Below are positions 8,996 to 49,883 of a stretch of DNA of 64,000 bases, piece after piece. Each line of letters begins with the position of its first letter. Position 1 is the stretch's first letter. The position numbers and the translations under genes were made by a program. This DNA comes from a virus, in IMG/VR virus record IMGVR_UViG_3300012271_000011, positions 1 through 64,000 of that record; one strand, given 5' to 3'. The notes beneath the pieces are model-generated. The model did not search any database. It saw only the letters and a program-made list of their open reading frames with translations, and was not told the DNA's origin.

Positions 8996-10075
8996 CTAGG
9001 CACAGGAAACCACGTGGGCTTGCCCCGTGGAGGAATGTGCCATCCCCCTTTCTGTTAGTGTTGTAGTTCTTGCTTTCAATCTTACACAATCCTTCTTTAC
9101 ATTGACAGACGAACTAATCACTTTGCCATCCAAGCCTGATATAGCAAAAAATCCCGTACTACGTTTTCCTTTGATAAAGCCAGTTCCTTTCGGTGTTTTA
9201 ATATGGTCAAATTTTCTCAAACCAAACAGCTTCCCTGTTGGTATCCTTTTTTCACTTCTACTGCCTTTAGTTTGTTGATAATCACCCTTAGAAACGTGCT
9301 TTTTAAAGCAGATTGAGGATAATAGATTAACAATTTCACCTTCTGTACAACAGATAGCGACGGCATCGTAGTAATGTGTTTTTGGCAACTGCAAAATCTG
9401 CTCCCGCTTAAATTTTGTATCGTATCCGAAGCTTTCTTCAAAATCACCAAACTCTTTTTTCAATTGAGATTTAACTATCCCTATTTCAGTAGCATGTTTG
9501 GTTTTACTTCTTGTACCTTTAATTTCAAACTCGCCCCCGTGTAGTTTGTCGTGGCATGGCCCACACAATGTAATCAGATTACTTGAGGTGTCTGTCCCAC
9601 CATTACTCCGAAATACAATATGGTGCACATGAAGTTCAGTATTTTTAGCTTTACACTTCTGACACTGATATCCATCACGATGTAAGATGTAAGCCCTAAC
9701 GTTGTAAAAACCCTTCTTATCCCCTTTTTGATAATCTTTAACATTGGAATTGCTAATCTTGTGAATGTCAAAACTTGCAGTCTCAACTTTCCATTTACTG
9801 ACAGGCAAGACAGACCCAACAAACTTTTTCTCTCTTAAATGAGAATCAATTTTTGACCTGATACTTGGAGCTAATCTGCCGTTTTCTCTCATAGAAGCAC
9901 GATTTTGCCACCTTGGCGGTCGATATCTTGTTTTCCTACCTCGTCTGTTTCTTCTGTACATTTTTCTTTGTTCCATTTTTTTAGAAACGTTCTGCCTTAT
10001 CTGTACATCAGACTGATATACGACTTGTCCATTGGTAATTGCAGCACAGCCAACTGTTTTACTCCCTGTGTCCAT
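8996..10075 (-). CDS. iscB: IscB RNA-guided nuclease, RuvC and HNH part
   Basis: 359 residues from ATG. RuvC-I GMDTGSKTVG, an arginine-rich bridge helix (RRNRRGRKTR), RuvC-II VETASFD, HNH with CQKCKAKN...HVHHIVF...CGPCHDKLH, and RuvC-III HYYDAVAI are all intact. The C-terminal target-interaction domain ends inside the element's terminal hairpin. IscB cuts DNA guided by an omega RNA. The frame is open upstream to 10111, where a TGA separates it from the PLMP domain. No good ribosome site precedes the ATG, so expression would need readthrough, reinitiation or separate association with the PLMP peptide. Confidence 0.85.
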   Translation of the reverse strand: MDTGSKTVGCAAITNGQVVYQSDVQIRQNVSKKMEQRKMYRRNRRGRKTRYRPPRWQNRASMRENGRLAPSIRSKIDSHLREKKFVGSVLPVSKWKVETASFDIHKISNSNVKDYQKGDKKGFYNVRAYILHRDGYQCQKCKAKNTELHVHHIVFRSNGGTDTSSNLITLCGPCHDKLHGGEFEIKGTRSKTKHATEIGIVKSQLKKEFGDFEESFGYDTKFKREQILQLPKTHYYDAVAICCTEGEIVNLLSSICFKKHVSKGDYQQTKGSRSEKRIPTGKLFGLRKFDHIKTPKGTGFIKGKRSTGFFAISGLDGKVISSSVNVKKDCVRLKARTTTLTERGMAHSSTGQAHVVSCA

Positions 10076-10111
10076 TCCTGCAACTATTGCTTGTAAATTT
10101 TCCTCGCAATC

Positions 10112-10243
10112 TCACAAAAGTTTGATTGTGAATGGTGTTCTTTTAACACACTTTGCCTTACCCGCCTTTAATAAATGTTTAGCTTTAGCAGGTGAGCAAG
10201 GCATCAAGGGATTCCCGTTTTTATTTATCACATACACACACAT
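10112..10243 (-). CDS. PLMP domain of IscB as a separate 43-residue ORF
   Basis: Encodes VINKNGNPLMPCSPAKAKHL and RTPFTIKLL, the N-terminal PLMP domain typical of IscB. GGGAGG lies upstream of the ATG. It ends at TGA in the same frame as the RuvC ORF; full IscB proteins continue here without interruption. The same TGA is conserved in the second copy at 46420-46422. Confidence 0.8.
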   Translation of the reverse strand: MCVYVINKNGNPLMPCSPAKAKHLLKAGKAKCVKRTPFTIKLL

Positions 10244-10337
10244 GGCTTTAACCCTCCCTGTGTATTAGGATTATGCGTATTATTGGCATTGGAGTTACTA
10301 ATAAATCCGTCTTCTTCTCGCGGGGATATTTCAGAGT
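10244..10337 (-). ncRNA. Omega RNA (HEARO-like) region upstream of IscB
   Basis: Noncoding sequence conserved almost base for base with 46197-46292 (CCCCGCGAGAAGAAGACGG, ATAATACGCATAATCC) although the flanks differ. In IscB systems the guide RNA lies just 5' of the protein and takes its guide from the DNA flanking the left end, here the interrupted gene at 10338 onward. The exact RNA ends are not known. Confidence 0.6.
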
Positions 10338-10452
10338 TTGACGATACAGACACCGTTCCTACCATCATAGAACTTTTAATCTGAATCCGAAGAGGTTCAG
10401 GCTGAAGCGGCACCCAAACGTTCCTAGTTTTCTGAATATCGTTTACAAACAT
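10338..10452 (-). pseudogene. 5' fragment of a gene interrupted by the IscB element
   Basis: Has ribosome site GGAG and ATG, and encodes MFVNDIQKTRNVWVPLQPEP and about 20 more natural-looking residues before the frame enters the omega RNA region. Its 3' part is not found on the other side of the element. Beta-rich composition suggests a virion protein. Confidence 0.5.
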
Positions 10453-18987: not shown

Positions 18988-19946
18988 TGCTTTCTTATGT
19001 GTATAAGATATTCTATAGTTCCTCCGTCCTTATTACTTCTATTATTATCTGCTTTATATCTTTTATAATCAAAATAATAAATATCTCTAATATCTTTTAA
19101 GCTTAATACCTCTTTGGCCAAAAGTCCTTCATTATTATATGATATAAATATATCCTTAAAATTAGCGTGTTCTAAGATATCTATTAACATTTCATAAGCA
19201 CTATCTTTATAACACATTTTGGATTTTTTATAATCTTTAGGCAAACCTGTTACCTCAGTAAGCTTTGAACCTTCTAAGCTATATTTTGCTATAGTATTAA
19301 GTAAATGATAATTAGAGCCATATTGTCTTCTATTATATGGTGGGTCTAAATATAATACATCACCACTTATTTCTTTTATTAAGTTTTGAGCATCTTCGTT
19401 ATAAATATCATTTTCTTGTCCAGGAACCACTTCCATATATTCAGGCTTTAATTCTATTTCTTTTTTAGCACTATCTTTTAAAGATTTAAAAAAAGCTGCA
19501 TATATACCCGCTGTGTTTTGAATCCTATCAACTGCTTCTAATAAAGATGTTAATAGAAAAAAATAATAGTCACTATCATCTTTAAACTTTTCTATATACT
19601 GTCTTATTGCATCTATTTTTTGACCATTATGATCAGAAAAATATAGTCTATTTGCTGGAGAGCAATAGTTATTATATATTAATCCTTTTATTGGTTCTAA
19701 AGAATTTATTTGTGGAAAAGCATCATCAAATTGAGTAATATTATTCTCTACATAATGTTTATTTAATATATAAGCATAATACTCAAAATCATTTGATATT
19801 ACTTTATTAAAATAAGGTTTCATGTTTGCTCCAACATATCCTGTCCCAGCAAATAAATCACAAAAACTTCCAAACTCTAATGATTGTTCTAATACTACAC
19901 TTTTTATTTCATCAAATAGTTTTGCTTTTCTTCCTATGTAATTCAA
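18984..19946 (-). CDS. DNA N6-adenine methyltransferase (D12 class)
   Basis: 320 residues. Motif I FCDLFAGTGYVGA binds S-adenosylmethionine, and motif IV DPPYNRRQYGSNYHL is the catalytic DPPY of adenine methylases. N-terminal MNYIGRKAKLFDEI is typical of this class. No matching restriction gene is nearby, so it probably protects phage DNA. The TTG start overlaps the TGA of the polymerase C-half gene. Confidence 0.85.
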   Translation of the reverse strand: MNYIGRKAKLFDEIKSVVLEQSLEFGSFCDLFAGTGYVGANMKPYFNKVISNDFEYYAYILNKHYVENNITQFDDAFPQINSLEPIKGLIYNNYCSPANRLYFSDHNGQKIDAIRQYIEKFKDDSDYYFFLLTSLLEAVDRIQNTAGIYAAFFKSLKDSAKKEIELKPEYMEVVPGQENDIYNEDAQNLIKEISGDVLYLDPPYNRRQYGSNYHLLNTIAKYSLEGSKLTEVTGLPKDYKKSKMCYKDSAYEMLIDILEHANFKDIFISYNNEGLLAKEVLSLKDIRDIYYFDYKRYKADNNRSNKDGGTIEYLIHIRKQ

Positions 19947-21973
19947 AGTTGTTTTATCATCCTTCTCATTTTGTTTGGGTTGTCAACCCAACCATTTTGT
20001 CCAAAAAGGATACCTCCTTTGTTGTCTTGATACATATTCATTAAATACATTTCATCTTCTTCTAAAAGATTTCCAATGATCTTCCAATAAGAAGCAAATA
20101 CTGGAATAGATTTTGCTTTTCCTTGAACATCTTCAATATTAAGAAATGCCATTTCATTACCATTTCTGTCAATTATTTTTCTTATATTATTTATTACTAC
20201 TGGAACTTTTCTTGATATTCTAGTTACCTCATCAAAGCTAAAGTTTATTAAACTTTTGTTTCTCATTTCTATAAAAGCATCTTTCATCTTATCATCAAAT
20301 ACAGAAGCAAAGAAATTTCCACCAAAATATTCTTTTTCATAATTCCTAAGATCAACTAAACTTGTTTCAATACCTGGAAGTTGCTTTACAGCACCCTCAG
20401 CTTCTTGCCATTTTATTTTAAGCTTTTCTACTACTTTAATAGACTTTTTCTTTTCCCAAAACATAGTAAGAATTTGAAGCATTAATTTTCTATTAGGATT
20501 CTCAAAATCAAAAGCACCTACAGAAACTAAGGCTTTAATGCCACCAATCTTTAAAAGTCTTCCATCAACTTTAGTTATTAAATCAAATAAACTATCAACA
20601 GGCCTAATGTCAATTATATGCTCAGCCGCTCTTTTACTTACTTGTTTTATATTTGATAAACCTAATATAAGTTTATCTTCGTTTAATGGAGTAACATCTA
20701 TTAAAGACTTATTAACATCAGGAGGTAATATTTCAAATTTTTGCCCCCTCACGGAAGAAAAAATATCTGCTAAATTACTTCCTTTATTTATCTCATACTC
20801 AAGCTCTGCTGCTAAAAAATATTTTTTGAAATAGTATGAAAGATATAAAGTCATTACAGCAATATAACTATAAGCTGATGCATGAGAGTTTTTAGCAACT
20901 ATGTTATTAACAGCTAATGTATGATAAGGTGTTGCCATCTCTACGTTATAAACATTCTCCGCTTCATTTTCTTCTATTGATACTATTTTCTGTAAAGAAG
21001 TTTTCTTACCTTTTTGATTCTTTATAGTTTTTTCATACCCTTCATTATAAAATAAACTATCACCTTCTTTTAGGTCATTATCTATATTTTTATAGATAAT
21101 ATTACCCTCTATTTTAACAGGAAAGTTGTGGTTGGAGGTTACATCTAAACTAGATCCATTTTCTAATACTATTTTATATGTTTTCCTAAATCCAGCATAA
21201 GTTATATTTATTATATCATTTATAATTAACTTTTCTTCCTCATTTAATGAGAACGCTTTTCCAAAACCTTTATATTTATATTTTTCATGTGTATGAGAAT
21301 GATTATTATCTTTTGCCCACTTAATATCATTTTTTGTCTTATACATTTCTTCTATAGTAGGAGACCACTTATTAGTATTATCCCTAGTTATTTTAGACTT
21401 ACCAGAGAAACATAAATTAAAACTGTATGAACTCATTTTTAAAAGATCATCAGCTATATTCTTTGCTTCTATTTCACTTAACCCAGTTTCAATGGCACCT
21501 TTAGAAAACTTCTTTACAATTTTATCCCACTTTTTTATATCCTCTGAATCTCTTTCTGTCTTACTGAGACGTTTCATAAGTTTTCTTACATTATCAGTTT
21601 CCTCAAGAGATAATCCACCTATCTTATTAAAGATAGACATTACTTGCTCTTGATATAAAACGACTGAGTTACTTATCTCAAGTAGTTCGGAAATAGGTTC
21701 TGGATATTTTCTTATCCCTTCATCCCTACCTCTAATATAATCCTCAACAAATGAGGATGTGCCAGGACGAGCTAAGGCATTAATAGCATTTATATCATCA
21801 AAGGAACGGGGTTTTATTTGTTTTACCATTGGAGCCGCCGTTCCACCGTTTAATTGAAATATACCAATCGTATTAGAGTCATTAACCTCATTATAAATAT
21901 TTTCATCTTTTAGGTCAATGTGATATAAAAACTCTCGTGCTTTATCTTTGCTTATTTCTTTTATTATTTTCAT
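19943..21973 (-). CDS. DNA polymerase III alpha, C-terminal half with in-frame intein
   Basis: 676 residues. Extein segments match bacterial DnaE after the third catalytic Asp: GIFQLNGG, ALARPGTSSFVEDYI, VVLYQEQVMSIF and SFNL/SHASAYSYIAV. Residues 188-362 are an intein between Leu187 and Ser363. After it come the DNA-binding fingers, an HhH-like region and an OB-like end (VPVVINNIRKII). It pairs with the N-half at 23101-25239; no intein sequence is visible at the break, so the halves presumably assemble noncovalently. Confidence 0.85.
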   Translation of the reverse strand: MKIIKEISKDKAREFLYHIDLKDENIYNEVNDSNTIGIFQLNGGTAAPMVKQIKPRSFDDINAINALARPGTSSFVEDYIRGRDEGIRKYPEPISELLEISNSVVLYQEQVMSIFNKIGGLSLEETDNVRKLMKRLSKTERDSEDIKKWDKIVKKFSKGAIETGLSEIEAKNIADDLLKMSSYSFNLCFSGKSKITRDNTNKWSPTIEEMYKTKNDIKWAKDNNHSHTHEKYKYKGFGKAFSLNEEEKLIINDIINITYAGFRKTYKIVLENGSSLDVTSNHNFPVKIEGNIIYKNIDNDLKEGDSLFYNEGYEKTIKNQKGKKTSLQKIVSIEENEAENVYNVEMATPYHTLAVNNIVAKNSHASAYSYIAVMTLYLSYYFKKYFLAAELEYEINKGSNLADIFSSVRGQKFEILPPDVNKSLIDVTPLNEDKLILGLSNIKQVSKRAAEHIIDIRPVDSLFDLITKVDGRLLKIGGIKALVSVGAFDFENPNRKLMLQILTMFWEKKKSIKVVEKLKIKWQEAEGAVKQLPGIETSLVDLRNYEKEYFGGNFFASVFDDKMKDAFIEMRNKSLINFSFDEVTRISRKVPVVINNIRKIIDRNGNEMAFLNIEDVQGKAKSIPVFASYWKIIGNLLEEDEMYLMNMYQDNKGGILFGQNGWVDNPNKMRRMIKQL
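20888..21412 (-). other. Mini-intein inside DNA polymerase III alpha
   Basis: 175 residues starting CFSGKSKIT (Cys1), with block B VTSNHNFPV, block F NVYNVEMATPYHTLAV and ending NNIVAKN before Ser. The penultimate residue is Lys instead of the usual His. No endonuclease domain. It sits four residues past the site of the cyanobacterial DnaE split intein. Confidence 0.85.
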
Positions 21974-23100: not shown

Positions 23101-25239
23101 TTAAACTGCCTCTAAAATATCATCAATATAGGATTGTGGAACTATTTTCTTTAATCCATCATCATCTTCAATAAGATATATCTTCTCATCAATCTTATCT
23201 AAAGTATTGTTAATGACATCAAGGGTGGTTAAGCCTAATACATCAAATTTTATTATTCCCAATTCATCTAAAACAGAATCTTGATTACTTTCAGGAAAAG
23301 CACTTACAATCTCACCGCTTACTTTCTCTATTGGCATTAACTCATTAACAGGACGATCTAAGATAATAATACCACCAGCATGTTTTGATAACTGTCTTAC
23401 TTTACCATCAAAATGTCTAACTAAATCAATTATTTTTTTATTCTGTTCATAAAATTTGTATTGCTTTGTATGAGTTGCTTTAATCATTTCTATATTCTCA
23501 TCCAAAGAAAGTTGAAAATCAAAGATCTTTGAAAACTCATTTGATGCTTTATAATCAATTTTATATATTCTAAGTAAATCTTTCAATGCTGATTTAAGAC
23601 CCATCTTAGAATAAGTTCCTACCTGAAAAACTCTGTCTTCTCCATACTTTTCTTTTAGGTGTTCTATTAAGTGATCACGAGCGGAAGGAGAGAGGTCTGA
23701 GTCAACATCAATACCCCCACTAGCTCCATTTCTCACTTGTGCCTTAGTAAGTTTTTGTTCATAAGTATTTGTAAAACCTAGTAAGAATGGAATAAGAAAA
23801 TTACCCTTTACCTCATTCTCTTGAAAAGCTTTATATAGATCAATTCCGTTCTTATAAAAATTCTTAGCAAATAAATATTCCCATTTAAAATCTCTTTTAT
23901 ACTCTGGATACTCTTCTAGTTTATCTTCACACATTTTCTTCAAATCAGTCATTTTTGTTTCCATCTCTTTTGTGTGAACTTCATCACCAAAATAATCTGG
24001 TATCATATCAGGGCTTCTTTGATCTGATAAAAATCTTTCAAATAACAACCCAAACTCAATAGGATCAAGACGAGTAATATTAAGAGAATAAAGAACTAAT
24101 GAACCAGCACCTGAACCCCTTCCTACACCAACTGTATAACCTGAATCTGTTACAAATTCAAGCATATCCTCAAGAATAAGTATATATGAAGAAAACCCTT
24201 TTCTTATTAAAACCTCTAATTCATGATTTAATCTTTTTTTATATTCTTCTGTAGGATTACCACCAAACTTTTCTTCTAAACCTCTCTTGGCTTTTTTTAT
24301 TAAAGCCTCATCATCATTTTCTGTAACAGAAGGAAGATATATTTTTCTTCTCTCTGGTATTTCATAATTACACATATCAGCTATTTTTATACTATTATTA
24401 GCCCATTCAATAACATCATTAGGATTATAGTTATATCCAAAATCTTTATTAAACTTTAAATAATCCTCTTCGTCATGATAATAAAGATTCTTACTTTCAA
24501 TTTCAAAATTTAAATTATCAATAGTAGCTTTATCTCTAATAGCTATTGAAAGAGTTTGAAGATTGTCTTGTCCAGGCTCTAAATAATGAACATCGCCTGT
24601 TACTACTATAGGAATATTAAACTCTTTTGCCCATTTAATCATATAATCATTAATAGTTTTTTGTCCCTCTGGAGCCTCATCCATTTCATAATTAATTTCA
24701 TTAAACTGAACTTCAGTATAAAAGTTCTCACCAAAATGCTTTACATATTTTTGGAATAATTCGTATGCCTTATCTATCTCTCCTGCTCTTATAAATCTTC
24801 CCCATTTGCTTTGCATGCACCCACTACCAACAATTATACCTTCAGAATTTTCAAATAATTCTTCTTCAGTTATTCTATTAGTATAATAAAAATGTTCTTC
24901 ATCTTTCATTGAAAGATAGTTTAACTTTAAGATATTCTTATAGCCTATCTCATTTTTAGCAAGTAAAATAAGATGAGAGTTTTTACCTCTCACTCTCTTC
25001 TTTTTCTCATTATATTCTACAAGCTCATCATTGATATAAGCCTCTACACCAAGAATAGGTTTTATGCCATATTCTTTACAAGCTTCTTGATGATGATATA
25101 TACCCGTAAGCTTTCCATGATCGGTAATAGCAAGTGCTTTATGCCCTAATTTATATGCTTTCTCCGCATATTGTTTAGATGAGCCTATTGCATCTAACCT
25201 TGAACCTAAATGACTATGTAAATGAAGTTGAGCAAACAT
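23101..25239 (-). CDS. DNA polymerase III alpha, N-terminal half (PHP and palm)
   Basis: 712 residues. It begins MFAQLHLHSHLGSRLDAI, the PHP domain with His metal ligands, then ITDHGKLTGIYHHQEACKE. The GVGRGSGAGSLVLYSLNIT loop, GGIDVDSDLS (first two catalytic Asp) and GIIKFDVLGL (third catalytic Asp) show a complete active site. It stops where DnaE would continue into the C-half at 21973. About 90 residues are inserted before GIDVD compared with bacterial DnaE. Strong AAGGAG before the ATG. Confidence 0.9.
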   Translation of the reverse strand: MFAQLHLHSHLGSRLDAIGSSKQYAEKAYKLGHKALAITDHGKLTGIYHHQEACKEYGIKPILGVEAYINDELVEYNEKKKRVRGKNSHLILLAKNEIGYKNILKLNYLSMKDEEHFYYTNRITEEELFENSEGIIVGSGCMQSKWGRFIRAGEIDKAYELFQKYVKHFGENFYTEVQFNEINYEMDEAPEGQKTINDYMIKWAKEFNIPIVVTGDVHYLEPGQDNLQTLSIAIRDKATIDNLNFEIESKNLYYHDEEDYLKFNKDFGYNYNPNDVIEWANNSIKIADMCNYEIPERRKIYLPSVTENDDEALIKKAKRGLEEKFGGNPTEEYKKRLNHELEVLIRKGFSSYILILEDMLEFVTDSGYTVGVGRGSGAGSLVLYSLNITRLDPIEFGLLFERFLSDQRSPDMIPDYFGDEVHTKEMETKMTDLKKMCEDKLEEYPEYKRDFKWEYLFAKNFYKNGIDLYKAFQENEVKGNFLIPFLLGFTNTYEQKLTKAQVRNGASGGIDVDSDLSPSARDHLIEHLKEKYGEDRVFQVGTYSKMGLKSALKDLLRIYKIDYKASNEFSKIFDFQLSLDENIEMIKATHTKQYKFYEQNKKIIDLVRHFDGKVRQLSKHAGGIIILDRPVNELMPIEKVSGEIVSAFPESNQDSVLDELGIIKFDVLGLTTLDVINNTLDKIDEKIYLIEDDDGLKKIVPQSYIDDILEAV

Positions 25240-25252
25240 TTTTTCTCCTTAT

Positions 25253-27001
25253 TTATCTATTTAAAATATAGACTTTATTCCCACAATCCCATATTCTATT
25301 ATAGTTATTATATAACATATTTTCATATTCTGTCAAGTTATCATCATAATTTTCAAAAATATTTTTAAGCTTATGTTTTTGATATTTATTTCTACTTTCC
25401 AAATTAAGATTATTTTTCTTGAAATAAAAATAATTTGGTTTACTAGTTTTTAAATACTCAAACCCATTACTTTCATACACATTACCATTAAAATAGCGCT
25501 TATCAGAATATGTTATAATATTTCCATTATAATTATTTAGAAAATATTTCAACAACTTAGAAAAACCACCTATTACTTTAGTGTTTTTCTTACTAGCTGA
25601 TCTTAATAATTCCCAATTATATCTTTTGTTAAATCTTGGCTTACCAAAAGTTACTACAGATACTAAAATACCATTATAATATAATCCATATTGCAACGAA
25701 GAGCCTATATCTCCTTGTAAATGATTAGCATTAAGGAATTCCCTTCTCTCTTTAATACTAACAGGTTTGATAACAGTTTTTCTAGCATAAATTACTTCAT
25801 TATATATATTCAGCCTAGAAAGAAGTATGCTACTCACTATATCTTTTTTATTAATCCATTCATTCTCAAATACATGTATTAAATCATATCCCTTTTCTTT
25901 AGCTAATTTTTGCTTATTTAAATGGTAATTTTTATGTTTTCCATTTATTTCACTATGCCAATATAAACCATTAAACTCAATAGCTATTTTTCTTTCTGGT
26001 ATAAGTATATCAATTTCGTATGGCTTTATTATTTTTCTGTTATGAGATTCTACATAAATATATTGACTTATGAAATCTCTCAACTCAACTTCCGAAACAG
26101 ACTCGTTAGTTGGAAAACATTTTTGACATCTTGGTATTTTACCAGCGTAAATATTATCATAAAAAATATTATTACATTTTTTACACTTCCATTTATAGTC
26201 TATTACACTTCCTTTTTCCTTAACTCCATAATATTCATTAATATCAAATAAAGGCTCCACAAGATTGTCAAAAGAAAAAACCTTTAAATTTTTAAAAAAC
26301 CTTTCTTTTGATTTATTATGATTTCCTTTGAGAAAAATGCTACTTTGAAAATAATACTCAACACCATATTTTTCCAAGTTTGTTTGTTTTATTTTTTCTT
26401 TAACATCTTTACTCTGCCCTGGATACTCAACACCATATTTTTCCAAGTTTGTTTGTTTTATTTTTTCTTTAATTTGCTTTGACCCAAAGGGATTTTCAAC
26501 ACCATACTTTTTTAAATTTGTTTGTTTTGCCTTTTCTTTAACTGATTCTAATTTTCTAGGACTGTCAACACCATATTTTTCTATATTGTTGTTTTTTCTT
26601 TTTTCCAAAATCTCTTTACTTTGTGTTGAAGTTTCAACACCATACTTTTCTAAATTTGTTTGTTTTGCCTTTTCCTTAACTGATTCTAAAGAAGAAGGGC
26701 TTGAGACTCCATACTTATATATATTGTTGTTTTTTCTTTTTTCCAAAATCTCTTTACTTTGTGTTGAAACTTCAACACCATACTTTTCTAAATTCGTTTG
26801 CTTCCTTTGACAAACCCCACAAACAAGGTTATTATTTTTTAAATTTCCTTTGCGTTTACTTGCCTCTTTACCACAAATATCACATATAAAAGTAATATTG
26901 TATGTTTTTGGAACTAACTCCAAATTAAATAAGCCATCTTCTATAAACAGACTTATATTTACTTCTTTTTTGTCTAGTGTTGATATTTTTACTATATTCA
27001 T
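25253..27001 (-). CDS. Vsr-like (EDxHD) homing endonuclease with repeated DNA-binding modules
   Basis: About 582 residues. An N-terminal Cys4 zinc ribbon (CDICG, CGVC) is followed by six copies of a roughly 35-residue module containing TNLEKYGVE and a VKEK-type helix, then a second Cys4 ribbon and a very-short-patch-repair-like nuclease domain (EIDILIPERKIAIEFNGLYW, HVFENEW). Similar multi-domain nucleases act as homing endonucleases in phage. It sits immediately upstream of the polymerase gene and has duplicated that gene's start (see 27012-27065). Confidence 0.8.
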   Translation of the reverse strand: MNIVKISTLDKKEVNISLFIEDGLFNLELVPKTYNITFICDICGKEASKRKGNLKNNNLVCGVCQRKQTNLEKYGVEVSTQSKEILEKRKNNNIYKYGVSSPSSLESVKEKAKQTNLEKYGVETSTQSKEILEKRKNNNIEKYGVDSPRKLESVKEKAKQTNLKKYGVENPFGSKQIKEKIKQTNLEKYGVEYPGQSKDVKEKIKQTNLEKYGVEYYFQSSIFLKGNHNKSKERFFKNLKVFSFDNLVEPLFDINEYYGVKEKGSVIDYKWKCKKCNNIFYDNIYAGKIPRCQKCFPTNESVSEVELRDFISQYIYVESHNRKIIKPYEIDILIPERKIAIEFNGLYWHSEINGKHKNYHLNKQKLAKEKGYDLIHVFENEWINKKDIVSSILLSRLNIYNEVIYARKTVIKPVSIKERREFLNANHLQGDIGSSLQYGLYYNGILVSVVTFGKPRFNKRYNWELLRSASKKNTKVIGGFSKLLKYFLNNYNGNIITYSDKRYFNGNVYESNGFEYLKTSKPNYFYFKKNNLNLESRNKYQKHKLKNIFENYDDNLTEYENMLYNNYNRIWDCGNKVYILNR

Positions 27002-27011
27002 AATGTTACTT

Positions 27012-27065
27012 TTACACAAAACCCCTACTTTCTAAATGGCTATGTAAATGAAGTTGAACAAACAT
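27012..27065 (-). pseudogene. Displaced 5' end of DNA polymerase gene left by homing-endonuclease insertion
   Basis: Reads MFVQLHLHSHLESRGFV then stop, with GGAGAAAAA before the ATG. The first eleven codons and ribosome site match the functional polymerase start at 25239 with two substitutions over about 43 nt. The endonuclease gene lies between the two copies. Confidence 0.8.
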
Positions 27066-46196: not shown

Positions 46197-46463
46197 AAAC
46201 TCTGAAAGATCCCCGCGAGAAGAAGACGGATTTATTAGTAACTCCAATGCCGATAATACGCATAATCCTAATACACAGGGAGGTTTAAAACCATGTGTGT
46301 ATGTGATAAACAAAAACGGGAATCCCTTGATGCCTTACTCACCTGCTAAAGCTAAGCATTTATTAAAGGCGGGTAAGACAAAGTGTGTTAAAAGAACACC
46401 ATTCACAATCAAACTTTTGTGAGATTGCGAGGAAAATTTACAAGCAATAGTTGCAGGAATGGA
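46197..46463 (+). mobile_element. Truncated second IscB element (omega RNA plus PLMP only)
   Basis: About 267 nt matching 10071-10337: the omega RNA region, the PLMP ORF, the same TGA and 40 further bases, then it ends abruptly within what would be the RuvC-I codons and joins a different gene fragment. No RuvC or HNH remains. Confidence 0.75.
46297..46422 (+). CDS. PLMP-domain mini-ORF (second copy)
   Basis: 41 residues from GTG, with GNPLMPYSPAKAKHLLKAGK. A two-base difference removes the ATG from frame, leaving GTG. Ends at the conserved TGA. May be dead or a minimal non-autonomous element product. Confidence 0.45.
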   Translation: MYVINKNGNPLMPYSPAKAKHLLKAGKTKCVKRTPFTIKLL

Positions 46464-46550
46464 ACTACTTTAAAAGATGAAGTTTCAAAACTTATGAAAA
46501 AAAGAATAGAGGAAGAATATGGTAGAAAGCAATTTTACAAAAATACCTAA
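46464..46550 (+). pseudogene. 3' fragment of a gene cut by the IscB remnant
   Basis: Open frame TTLKDEVSKLMKKRIEEEYG then RKQFYKNT and stop, without a start; it begins exactly at the element's right junction and overlaps the next gene. Confidence 0.5.
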
Positions 46551-47610
46551 TCAAGTTTTAGACAACATGGAAAAAATAGGTATTAAAAATAATAGATATC
46601 TTCTTGTCCTTATTTATATTATGAGGCATAAAAAAGGATATAGATTATCTAATAAACAAATAGAGAATTCTTTATCCATGCATCATAAAACTGTAAAAAA
46701 TGCCATAGCCTTCTTAAAAGATAATAACATTATTGACTATAAGGAAACATCTCAAGGTAAAATATATGGCTTTCAAAAACTTATTAAAATAATAAAAAAT
46801 ATTGAAAATGGCAAAAGTGCCGAGGGGGGTCGGCCGTACGGCCGTGCACCCTCGGCTATACCGCCGACAAATAATACTAACTATAATATTAATTATAAAA
46901 CTAATTATAAAACTAGCTCAGTTAGTTTTGAAAAAATAAGAGGGAAGATAGTTAGTAAGATCACATCCTTCTTTAAAAATGATATTGATGAAGTAGCTAA
47001 AGAAATAATAGATGGTTTTGATCCCTCATTTTATAAGTTTCAAGATTACATTCCAACTGATAAGGAAATTTCTCAATTTCTTGAAACTAATAAAGAAGAG
47101 ACACTTGACAAGTTTGACAAATATTTATATAATGGAGTTGTATCAGAGAGCTTCATTTATAATGGTAAGTTAATAAAACCAAGACTTGCATTATTAAATA
47201 CTAATAAAGTTCGTTTAAATGAACTATTACATATATACTATTCTTATGATGATGAGGAAATAATGGAAGAAGAATCAATATTTGATAAATCCCCTACTTT
47301 TAGAGAATTTGTTAAACAGCAACAGTTACAAGAAAAACCTACTAAAGATAAGTATGCTAACTTGCCGAAAGCAGAAGCTGCATATTTACGCGCCCTTCAT
47401 GAATATGAGCCTCCTAAAGATGATGAGCTTGCAGATGTTCATATAAAGCCAATTAACTCATCAGAGTATTATGATGGGTCTAAAGAAGTTTTAGCTACTG
47501 AAGAAGATATTGATGAGATATTAAGTGAGTATGTTTCATTTGATGAGACTGAAGAAGATGAGAGGGAAATGAGTGAGAGGGAAATGAATGAACTTCTTGA
47601 TGAGATGTAG
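46519..47610 (+). CDS. Replication-initiator-like protein with winged helix
   Basis: 363 residues. The N-terminal 90 residues (TKIPNQVLDNMEKIGIKNNR, LSNKQIENSLSMHHKTVKNA) form a winged helix like phage O/DnaD replication proteins. The acidic C-terminus may bind a helicase loader or helicase. A GC-rich palindrome and AT-rich repeats lie inside the gene (46819-46924), as the lambda origin lies in gene O. AGAGGAAGAAT precedes the ATG. Confidence 0.6.
   Translation: MVESNFTKIPNQVLDNMEKIGIKNNRYLLVLIYIMRHKKGYRLSNKQIENSLSMHHKTVKNAIAFLKDNNIIDYKETSQGKIYGFQKLIKIIKNIENGKSAEGGRPYGRAPSAIPPTNNTNYNINYKTNYKTSSVSFEKIRGKIVSKITSFFKNDIDEVAKEIIDGFDPSFYKFQDYIPTDKEISQFLETNKEETLDKFDKYLYNGVVSESFIYNGKLIKPRLALLNTNKVRLNELLHIYYSYDDEEIMEEESIFDKSPTFREFVKQQQLQEKPTKDKYANLPKAEAAYLRALHEYEPPKDDELADVHIKPINSSEYYDGSKEVLATEEDIDEILSEYVSFDETEEDEREMSEREMNELLDEM
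46819..46924. other. GC-rich palindrome plus AT-rich repeats, putative replication origin
   Basis: Arms GCCGAGGG and CCCTCGGC (46819-46826, 46849-46856) enclose the perfect palindrome CGGCCGTACGGCCG. They are followed by two TAATTATAAAAC direct repeats in a very AT-rich stretch, all within an initiator-like gene. The GC content is an extreme outlier in this window. Confidence 0.4.
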
Positions 47611-47626: not shown

Positions 47627-47647
47627 CTTATTATAAAGGAAAAATTT

Positions 47648-47767
47648 ATGAAACTTGGAAAAGTTTTAAATGAACTTAAGGAGAATTTGGTGGATAATCA
47701 GACGCTGAATGAGGCCGGGATAAGAATCCCTAAAGGCGCTCGTGCAGCTAAGATTATCCACCATTAA
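47648..47767 (+). CDS. DHH phosphoesterase, N-terminal segment with capsid-targeting-like leader
   Basis: 39 codons from ATG (MKLGKVLNELKENLV) to TAA. It contains two LxE sites (VLNE|L, TLNE|AG) and ends KIIHH, the first half of the DHH motif. The second half resumes in another frame 56 bases later. AAAGG lies upstream of the ATG and a late motif before that. Confidence 0.6.
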   Translation: MKLGKVLNELKENLVDNQTLNEAGIRIPKGARAAKIIHH

Positions 47768-47820
47768 CTCTTTGAGGTAGTAATATCCTAATAAGATATG
47801 AATCCTCAAAGGGAACTGTT
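47765..47820 (+). other. 56-nt noncoding gap with hairpin inside DHH gene (bypass or tiny intron candidate)
   Basis: Starts with TAA directly after the His codons. It contains a perfect 10-bp stem CTCTTTGAGG/CCTCAAAGGG (47768-47777, 47804-47813) and an inner stem ATATC/GATAT. Upstream coding sequence forms a 12-bp perfect stem TGGTGGATAATC/GATTATCCACCA (47688-47699, 47752-47763) ending at the last codon. TTAAC flanks both sides of the gap. Confidence 0.45.
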
Positions 47821-49536
47821 AACGAAGATTTTGACGGAGTATTCTCCGCTATTATTACTTACAGACAACTTTTAAAACAAGGAATTAAACCTCGTAACAT
47901 TCGTATTGAAGGTATTCAATATGGAGATACAAATGCTGAAGTAGATAAAAAATTATCTAAGTCTAAAAGACAAATGGTTGCTTTAGTAGATTTTGCTCGT
48001 CTTCCTGAAGGTGTAAAGAAACCAGATTTCTGGTCAGACCATCATCAAAATGATGAACCTGAATCTACTGGTGGAGGTCGCACCGGTGCGACAGATTTTA
48101 AAAGTGATGCTTCTCATTTAGCTACTTTACATACAGAGAATATGGTAGATGGAAAAACTATTGATATAGTAAATAAAATTGATAGTGCCGGTTATACTGA
48201 CTTAACTGAAATATTAAAACTACCAAAAGATTTTCGTAAAGCTCGTAGATTAGAAAGACTTGGTATTCTTTGTAATGCATTACTAACTAAGTCAGGTATT
48301 TTAAAGAATTCTTCATTACTTCAAGAGTTTATAAAAAAGACAAAACCTTCTATTGTATCATTTTATAATAATATACTTACATATGTAAGATTAAATGATA
48401 TACAAGATGAGGCTATTAAAGAGCTTGCAAAAGATGAACCTAATTGGGATAAAGTAACTCAATCAAGAAAGGCTATGCCTAGTCAAAGAGCAGCAGAGAA
48501 AATAAAGACACCAGGGAAAGTATCAGCAAAAACTCGTATAAGAGCAATTGAGAAAAATGAGGATATGGATGAAGGTGCTTTAGAAGATTATGATAAACTT
48601 CAAGAGCTAAAGAAAAAAGGTGATAAGAGAACAGAAGCTGAAGAGGAAGAATATAAGGAACTTGTAAATCAACCTATAGAACAAATGAGAGCTCGTAGAG
48701 CAGCTAGTGCTGAGAAGGCAAAGACCTCTGGTGAACTTGTTCCCAAAGGTGCAGTAATATTACAAAGTAACCCAAGACTTCAAAGATATCTTTGGACACA
48801 AATGAATAAAGCTGGTTTGAAATATCCCTTTGTAATAAAAAAGTATGCTACCTTTTTACAAGTAGCTGTAAACCCAGAACTTCCTAAAGTAGTAAAGGAT
48901 TATGTTGATCTAGGAGAAGTTGCTACAAAGGTAATGGAAGAGATAAGAAAAAAATTTGAGAATAAATATAATTCTTGGGCTTTTAATATTATTGAAAAAG
49001 AAAGAGGTGGACATAAAGGTATCACTAATATTCCAGCTCTTGGAACCATAGGTTTAATGAAGAAAGCTGATAGAGAAGAGTTAAAATATCTTGAGGGCTT
49101 AGAGGATAGAATAAAAAAACTTAAAAATCTTGGTAGTAGAAAACTTGATGCAAAAGATAAAGAGAGATTAAAAGAGGCTCAAAAAATATTAAAGAGAAAA
49201 ACTACTTCTGATGTTGATAAGGAATATTATCAAAAGCTTGAAAAAATTCTTAATCCTACTATGGAAAAATTAATGCCAGAAAAGGCAAAGAAATTAAAAG
49301 AACTTAAAGATAAGAAAAAAGCAACTGCCGAGAAGAGAAAGAAAATAATGAATGAAATCATTGAAGAGTTTCAAAAACAATTTAGAGAAAAATTTAAAGC
49401 AGATGCTAATATGCCAGTAATAGGCAAAACTGGAATTAAACTAACTGGTGGGAAGAAAGAATACGAATTAGAAAATGAAAATACTACTATAAATAGAATG
49501 AGACAAATAGCAGAAGGAAATTTAATAGAACAATAA
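47821..49536 (+). CDS. DHH/DHHA1 phosphoesterase, main part
   Basis: About 571 codons from AAC GAA GAT. NEDFDGVFSAIIT continues the motif started by KIIHH; VDFARLPEGV, WSDHHQND (DHH) and the C-terminal ERGGHKGITNIPALG (DHHA1 substrate loop) are all present, with a long charged linker. DHH enzymes cleave nano-RNA, c-di-NMP or oligonucleotides. Without joining to 47648 there is no good start before the ATG at 47974. Confidence 0.7.
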   Translation, partial: NEDFDGVFSAIITYRQLLKQGIKPRNIRIEGIQYGDTNAEVDKKLSKSKRQMVALVDFARLPEGVKKPDFWSDHHQNDEPESTGGGRTGATDFKSDASHLATLHTENMVDGKTIDIVNKIDSAGYTDLTEILKLPKDFRKARRLERLGILCNALLTKSGILKNSSLLQEFIKKTKPSIVSFYNNILTYVRLNDIQDEAIKELAKDEPNWDKVTQSRKAMPSQRAAEKIKTPGKVSAKTRIRAIEKNEDMDEGALEDYDKLQELKKKGDKRTEAEEEEYKELVNQPIEQMRARRAASAEKAKTSGELVPKGAVILQSNPRLQRYLWTQMNKAGLKYPFVIKKYATFLQVAVNPELPKVVKDYVDLGEVATKVMEEIRKKFENKYNSWAFNIIEKERGGHKGITNIPALGTIGLMKKADREELKYLEGLEDRIKKLKNLGSRKLDAKDKERLKEAQKILKRKTTSDVDKEYYQKLEKILNPTMEKLMPEKAKKLKELKDKKKATAEKRKKIMNEIIEEFQKQFREKFKADANMPVIGKTGIKLTGGKKEYELENENTTINRMRQIAEGNLIEQ

Positions 49537-49597
49537 GTATTTTTTTATTTTTATTTTCCCTGTCTAAAGTTTAATAAAATTGAAATGTTGGAAGAAA

Positions 49598-49626
49598 AAA
49601 AAGCAGAGGTTTAAACCTCTGCTTTA
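49598..49626. terminator. Bidirectional terminator
   Basis: Perfect stem AAAGCAGAGGTTT/AAACCTCTGCTTT between convergent genes. Confidence 0.85.
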
Positions 49627-49883
49627 TTATTTAGAAAACTTTTCTTTATCATATTATATCCATATGAACTTATACCTGTATAGACAAATACATTCTTTAA
49701 ATATAATTGCCAACCAAATGGTTCTGTAATAAACAATGCTGCTACAAAACTTAGTATAAGCGGAAGCAGAATATAAAACTTTTTAAACTTATTTCCTGCA
49801 TCAAGCTTATTTTTTATAAGTTCTGATATTCCCACAATAGCACCTAATATAGATGCATCTATTCCTAAATTTATAAAATCCAT
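49611..49883 (-). CDS. Holin-like membrane protein
   Basis: 90 residues with an N-terminal hydrophobic stretch (ILGAIVGISELI), a second helix (ILLPLILSFVAALFI) and a third weaker one, then a Lys tail, like class II/III holins. It clusters with another membrane protein and a lipase, fitting a lysis cassette. Its stop lies within the terminator stem. Confidence 0.55.
   Translation of the reverse strand: MDFINLGIDASILGAIVGISELIKNKLDAGNKFKKFYILLPLILSFVAALFITEPFGWQLYLKNVFVYTGISSYGYNMIKKSFLNNKAEV

Follow-up and report, generated by a model that had tools for sequence, protein, structure and literature searches.

To our knowledge, efficient translational bypassing in phages is known essentially from gene 60 of T4 alone, together with one suspected case in a Streptomyces phage. 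In the motor model of gene 60, a 5' stem-loop is completed behind the ribosome, with a stop codon in the A site and a landing codon that matches the take-off codon (PMC5009743, PMC11194080). The T4 gene 39/60 is split by an endonuclease gene (PMC5009743), and mobA has been described at this locus (PMC2988022). Short hops over a stop codon have been obtained as synthetic 'stop hops' in E. coli reporters, where matched codons flank the stop, and natural in-frame stop hops were not known according to the same 2016 review (PMC5009743). The mitochondrial bypassing elements of Magnusiomyces capitatus are short skipped inserts, for which the landing match is not always perfect.

Here we analysed a DHH phosphoesterase gene in a 64,000-nucleotide stretch of viral DNA (the window), and found that nine genes, among about 130 distinct relatives examined, are interrupted within the motif H-x-D-[LF]-D-G. 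These loci resemble T4 gene 60 and mobA in having a stop codon after the take-off codon, a 5' stem-loop and a non-coding gap, joined in five of the nine by an endonuclease gene beside the interrupted one. In addition, the take-off and landing codons match at the six sites located after a leucine (both are Leu codons, with CUC/CUU in one case, L077), and the window's gap of 56–59 nt is close to the 50 nt of gene 60. In contrast to gene 60, most of the DHH gaps span only 6–11 nt, the landing codon is near-cognate at the three sites located after a histidine, the 3' arm of the stem extends to the take-off codon, the host gene is a DHH phosphoesterase cut at its catalytic motif, the nine interruptions are scattered on the tree, and two unrelated endonuclease types are involved. 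Two of the sites (L206 and L253) carry the CUU UGA CUU arrangement of the synthetic stop hops, but they are natural and have a selected hairpin upstream, whereas the difference from the M. capitatus elements is that the DHH sites are found in phages and in a single gene family, and that each of them has a stop codon and, 5' of it, a structured element. Judged from sequence, these genes probably use programmed translational bypassing of the T4 gene 60 type, with short stop hops, brought in on endonuclease cassettes, as the usual form.

The interrupted DHH gene of the window

The protein encoded by the window gene matches the Pfam DHH family weakly, below the family cut-off, and contains the H-x-D-x-D-G and DHH motifs of DHH phosphoesterases. 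For L008, one of the continuous homologues, a structure was predicted (mean pLDDT 74.5), and it resembles RecJ, NrnA and other enzymes of the DHH group, with E-values down to 5e-7 and low global TM-scores. Among annotated phages the window gene has no relatives, and only uncultured huge phages have continuous copies of distant ones; the bacterial genomes searched yielded two distant relatives only. In the continuous homologues exactly one residue separates H and D of the first motif, and the closest spelling to that of the window is KIIHH-E-DLDG, from L008.

All elements of the window site lie on the plus strand. A Shine-Dalgarno-like AAAGGA (47635–47640) precedes ORF1 (47648–47764), whose 39 codons align with the N-termini of continuous homologues. 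Since the ORF1 peptides are similar to these N-termini, no dedicated nascent peptide signal (KKYK-like) is evident. ORF1 ends in AAKIIHH, its last codon being the putative take-off codon CAT (47762–47764), which adjoins a TAA stop (47765–47767). A first, sequence-only reading of this locus had noted that the frame stops here and resumes in another frame, as is indeed the case, with the coding sequence restarting as EDFDG at 47824. It had also described a perfect 12-bp hairpin ending at the last codon, and this upstream stem was found at 47688–47699 (5' arm, TGGTGGATAATC) and 47752–47763 (3' arm, GATTATCCACCA, reaching position 2 of the take-off codon), and its differences from L009 and L011 include compensatory changes. 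The second hairpin of that reading, inside the gap, is likewise present at 47768–47813, with an inner stem of 5 bp and an outer one of 10 bp (CTCTTTGAGG/CCTCAAAGGG, 47768–47777/47804–47813), one pair of the outer stem being G-U. A 211-nt region of the window folds with z = −6.4 relative to dinucleotide shuffles. Among the contigs searched no related copy of the gap hairpin was detected, except in a near-identical contig (G001).

The position at which decoding would resume had been placed at an asparagine, 56 nt after ORF1. This is possible, but resumption at GAA 47824, after 59 nt, is likelier: the H-x-D spacing is one residue in all continuous homologues, so that AAC (47821–47823) is likely an undecoded landing codon. 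The non-decoded segment would then comprise 47765–47823, the landing codon included, with an AAAGGG (47808–47813) inside the gap shortly upstream of it. In the window, as noted in the earlier reading, the take-off CAT indeed lacks a landing codon that matches it; with the His anticodon, AAC can form two of the three base pairs. The remainder of the DHH phosphoesterase is encoded by ORF2 (47824–49536), which is in the other frame, starts as EDFDGVFSAI... and has no ATG, GTG or TTG before 47974. Sequencing error, one of the outcomes considered in the earlier reading, is excluded for this gap because an independent assembly from another sample, contig L001, is identical to the window across 47648–49536. 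Downstream, a terminator-like hairpin (AAAGCAGAGGTTTAAACCTCTGCTTT, 49597–49628) lies between the DHH gene and a converging gene.

Related interruptions and their upstream hairpins

The nine interrupted genes are those of the window, L002 (the same as L009), L011, L206, L032 (L207), L077 (L081), L253 (L254), L231 and L256. Several of the sites are present in a second contig as well (L001, L081 and L254); for the window this is the identical L001, and there is no second, diverged copy. The stop directly follows the take-off codon in all nine, with TAA, TAG and TGA all represented, and the skipped lengths range from 6 to 59 nt, being 6, 8, 9 or 11 nt outside the window. In three genes the interruption follows the histidine. 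L002 reads KILYH-TGA and resumes in the same frame 9 nt on, at QDFDG, whereas L011 reads KVIYH-TAG and resumes in another frame 8 nt on, at QDLDG; the take-off and landing codons of the three are near-cognate (CAU/AAC in the window, CAC/CGC in L002, CAU/UAC in L011). In the other six the interruption is found three codons further, after the Leu of D-L-D-G, and the landing codon is CUU, with CUU as take-off codon in five and CUC in L077. Here L206 and L253 read CTT TGA CTT GAC GG (6 nt skipped, in frame), L077 reads CTC TAA GGG CTT GAT (9 nt, in frame), and the remaining three skip 11 nt with a change of frame, as CTT TGACGATG CTT GAT in L032 and CTT TGACGGGT CTT GAT in L231 and L256. The trait requires three changes on the tree of the inner clade and nine on that of a set of 131 sequences, and was thus gained and lost many times.

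A scan of nine related contigs for further interrupted genes retained the DHH site alone. The candidates from G007 and G005 turned out to be normal gene splits or a slip in a GGTGGG repeat, and an initial scan without gene filtering returned antisense noise. A second apparent frameshift, in a different gene, was observed at GGTGGGTGGGTGGG (L125 9163; G007 29163) and resembles slippage in a repeat or a sequencing error.

The RNA structure upstream of the interruptions is under selection. ORF1 is more stable than all of 1000 synonymous recodings in each of the nine genes (z from −4.6 to −11.8, the latter in the window). The 105 nt up to the take-off codon fold with −21.7 to −44.2 kcal/mol in the interrupted genes, compared with a mean of −13.5 kcal/mol (sd 5.1, minimum −27.2) in 122 uninterrupted relatives, and L002 is the only interrupted copy with an energy within this control range. 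At all nine sites the 3' arm terminates close to the end of the take-off codon, at most 3 nt short of it or 4 nt beyond it. The stems ending at the His codon in L002 and L011 are perfect over 9 and 13 bp, respectively; among 516 ordinary gene stops from nine contigs, a perfect stem of 9 bp or longer ends at the stop in only two. Two-sided changes are found in 5 of 13 pairs of the His-site stem (three sequences) and in 4 of 19 pairs of the Leu-site stem. Pairing is maintained at 90% in the former (33–47% when the arms are slid) and in 91% of cells in the latter (33–48% when slid), and because few sequences are compared the weight rests on these slid controls and on the recoding test. A permissive scoring of stems, allowing G-U pairs and a bulge, failed to set the His-site cases apart from the controls, whereas perfect stems and folding energies do so. 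Codons ahead of the stop have a raised GC3 in the window and in L002, whereas those of L011 do not. The uninterrupted L007 also has, at 2400–2510, a stem of moderate strength that covers the His codons (9 pairs, including G-U) and may be what precedes a hop site or what is left of one.

Decoding of the downstream frame

One alternative is that the stop codon and the insert have inactivated the DHH gene, the hairpins being scars of endonuclease insertion. Mobile endonucleases do leave scars, the gene has no known product and the large majority of its relatives are uninterrupted. Against this, all nine genes keep an open frame of hundreds of codons after the gap, and the comparison of the window with L002 gives pN/pS values, rough since silent changes are near saturation, of 0.22 for the segment before the stop and 0.34 for the 33 post-gap codons that precede any start, which indicates that both segments are under purifying selection where tested. 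Compensatory changes have restored the hairpin, and the flanking DNA of L231 and L256 is only 78–82% identical (about 20% different), yet a single base differs over roughly 80 nt around the gap. We thus regard a broken gene as unlikely. The sequence-only reading would have taken continuous homologues and relatives free of the gap, together with the absence of a fusion product, as signs of a pseudogene or an error; such homologues and relatives exist, yet they do not overturn the bypass, because eight other relatives have their own stop and hairpin in the same motif, followed by intact downstream frames.

Termination after ORF1 with reinitiation downstream, giving a protein split into two polypeptides, is very unlikely as a general explanation. 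It is possible in L032, L231 and L256, because a TTG in frame with ORF2 overlaps the stop codon in these three. The window, L002, L011, L206, L077 and L253 have no such start, and their first ATG, GTG or TTG lies past D-x-D-G (about 50 codons past the gap in the window and L002); moreover, the catalytic motif would be divided between two chains.

Stop codon readthrough or simple frameshifting appears still less plausible. ORF2 is in frame with ORF1 in L002, L206, L077 and L253, as readthrough would need, and in L011, L032, L231 and L256 the frame could be reached by a −1 shift, but either event would add 2–4 residues to H-x-D-x-D-G, whose spacing is constant in continuous homologues, and in the window each frame contains a further stop. 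All three stop codons occur at the sites, each of them terminates normal genes in these phages, and neither suppressor tRNAs nor reassigned stops were found there, the search for tRNA genes in these phages being also empty.

Removal of the gap from the RNA, as a tiny intron or through splicing of the tRNA-endonuclease type, or from the DNA is barely credible, in spite of the hairpins in the window's gap, as the relatives skip only 6, 8, 9 or 11 nt, we know of no introns of 6–11 nt, no Rfam match was obtained, and a deletion at the TTAAC repeat (55 nt) would give the wrong frame. Of the two possibilities offered by the earlier reading, bypass or tiny intron, only the bypass is therefore supported.

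In the translational bypass that we propose, the ribosome would read ORF1 as far as the His codon CAT of the window, with the stop codon then occupying the A site. The upstream stem, whose 3' arm is at this point within the ribosome, would refold behind it and pull the mRNA back, upon which the peptidyl-tRNA would release its codon. As the 3' arm ends at the take-off site, the stem can close only as the ribosome advances, which fits a pull of about 6–13 nt. The ribosome would then slide across the gap, shortened in the window by its own hairpin, and the tRNA would re-pair at the landing codon, AAC in the window and CUU in six relatives, so that decoding restarts and, in the window, the motif H-E-D-F-D-G is rebuilt. 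The hop and its efficiency are inferred, and so are the target of the endonuclease and the shared origin of the window site.

If this is correct, the in-frame CUU UGA CUU sites would be the first natural stop hops in the open-access literature searched, with later reports possible. The nine natural variants, with gaps of 6–59 nt in one motif, would make the rules of take-off and landing readable from evolution and directly testable, and their minimal common anatomy is a hairpin, a stop and a matched or near-matched landing codon. Similar sites may be present unnoticed as 'broken' genes in other phages, a warning that phage genes with this label may be intact.

Endonuclease genes beside the sites

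An endonuclease gene is found directly upstream of five of the nine interrupted genes, and of only one of 94 controls, the uninterrupted relatives with sufficient upstream sequence (Fisher p = 8e-6). The single control is L250, which has an HNH-type gene at about 1632–2439 and an uninterrupted DHH gene. In L002 and L011 the endonuclease genes are 54% identical, lie 30–33 nt upstream of the DHH start and are Phage_endo_I-like with a trace of NUMOD3; elsewhere, this type had one weak relative only. L032, L077 and L253 have another endonuclease-like type at the same position, matching the profiles phrog_681 ('endonuclease') and phrog_5104, with C-termini that we read as HNH-like. The hop sites of L206, L231 and L256 have no endonuclease, as if the gene had later been lost.

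The presence and absence of a cassette can be compared directly between L077 and L096/L095. L096 represents the empty site, with flanks 93.8% and 91.2% identical to those of L077. In L077 the insert is 985 bp long; it brings in the endonuclease, provides the gene with a new start and supplies the stem's 5' arm, and is accompanied by diverged codons and then the 9-nt stop/landing insert, after which identity returns to at least 90% over about 300 nt. The original first codons of the DHH gene (ATGAGAAGAAATTTAATTAATGAGGGG) are cut off ahead of the 985-bp insert, and L011 has a similarly severed N-terminus (MKIDNLLNTMLTE...). This pattern is as expected of endonuclease homing with co-conversion.

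Across the family, the sites would arrive with homing-type endonuclease genes just upstream, in the manner of mobA and gene 60 in T4, the altered motif I sequence probably shielding its carrier from cleavage and the hop keeping the gene functional. The nine sites look like repeatedly acquired, mobile ribosome-jump sites. We lean towards the view that short stop hops, driven by one hairpin that closes behind the ribosome, are a recurrent mobile device, installed time and again by unrelated homing-type endonucleases in the catalytic motif of a single phage gene, by which that gene may escape cleavage and still work; the link to endonucleases suggests a general reason for the evolution of bypassing.

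No intact endonuclease is found beside the window gene. A possible relic, the N-terminal fragment of an RRXRR (IscB-like) endonuclease, is located at 46297–46422 on the plus strand (Pfam RRXRR, E = 1e-11), 1.2 kb upstream, and since this fragment is all that lies there we infer the origin of the window site by analogy with its relatives.

Elsewhere in the window, an IscB-like endonuclease gene with RRXRR and HNH regions is found on the minus strand (8999–10339), and its 5' portion of about 269 bp (10071–10339) is repeated with 96.7% identity at 46197–46463 on the plus strand, upstream of a replication O-like gene. The latter (46519–47610) includes a tandem repeat of GGTGGCAAAAGTGCCGAG-like units (46809–46829 in the window, 1920–2000 in L001), and in L001 it is longer than in the window by 26 in-frame codons, behind which lies a palindrome rich in G+C. 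Two minus-strand ORFs of the window (19946–21973 and 23104–25239) match different parts of the phrog_405 DNA polymerase family. This split polymerase adjoins a homing endonuclease gene (25256–27019), and in G005 and G007 the counterpart of its second ORF is divided once more.
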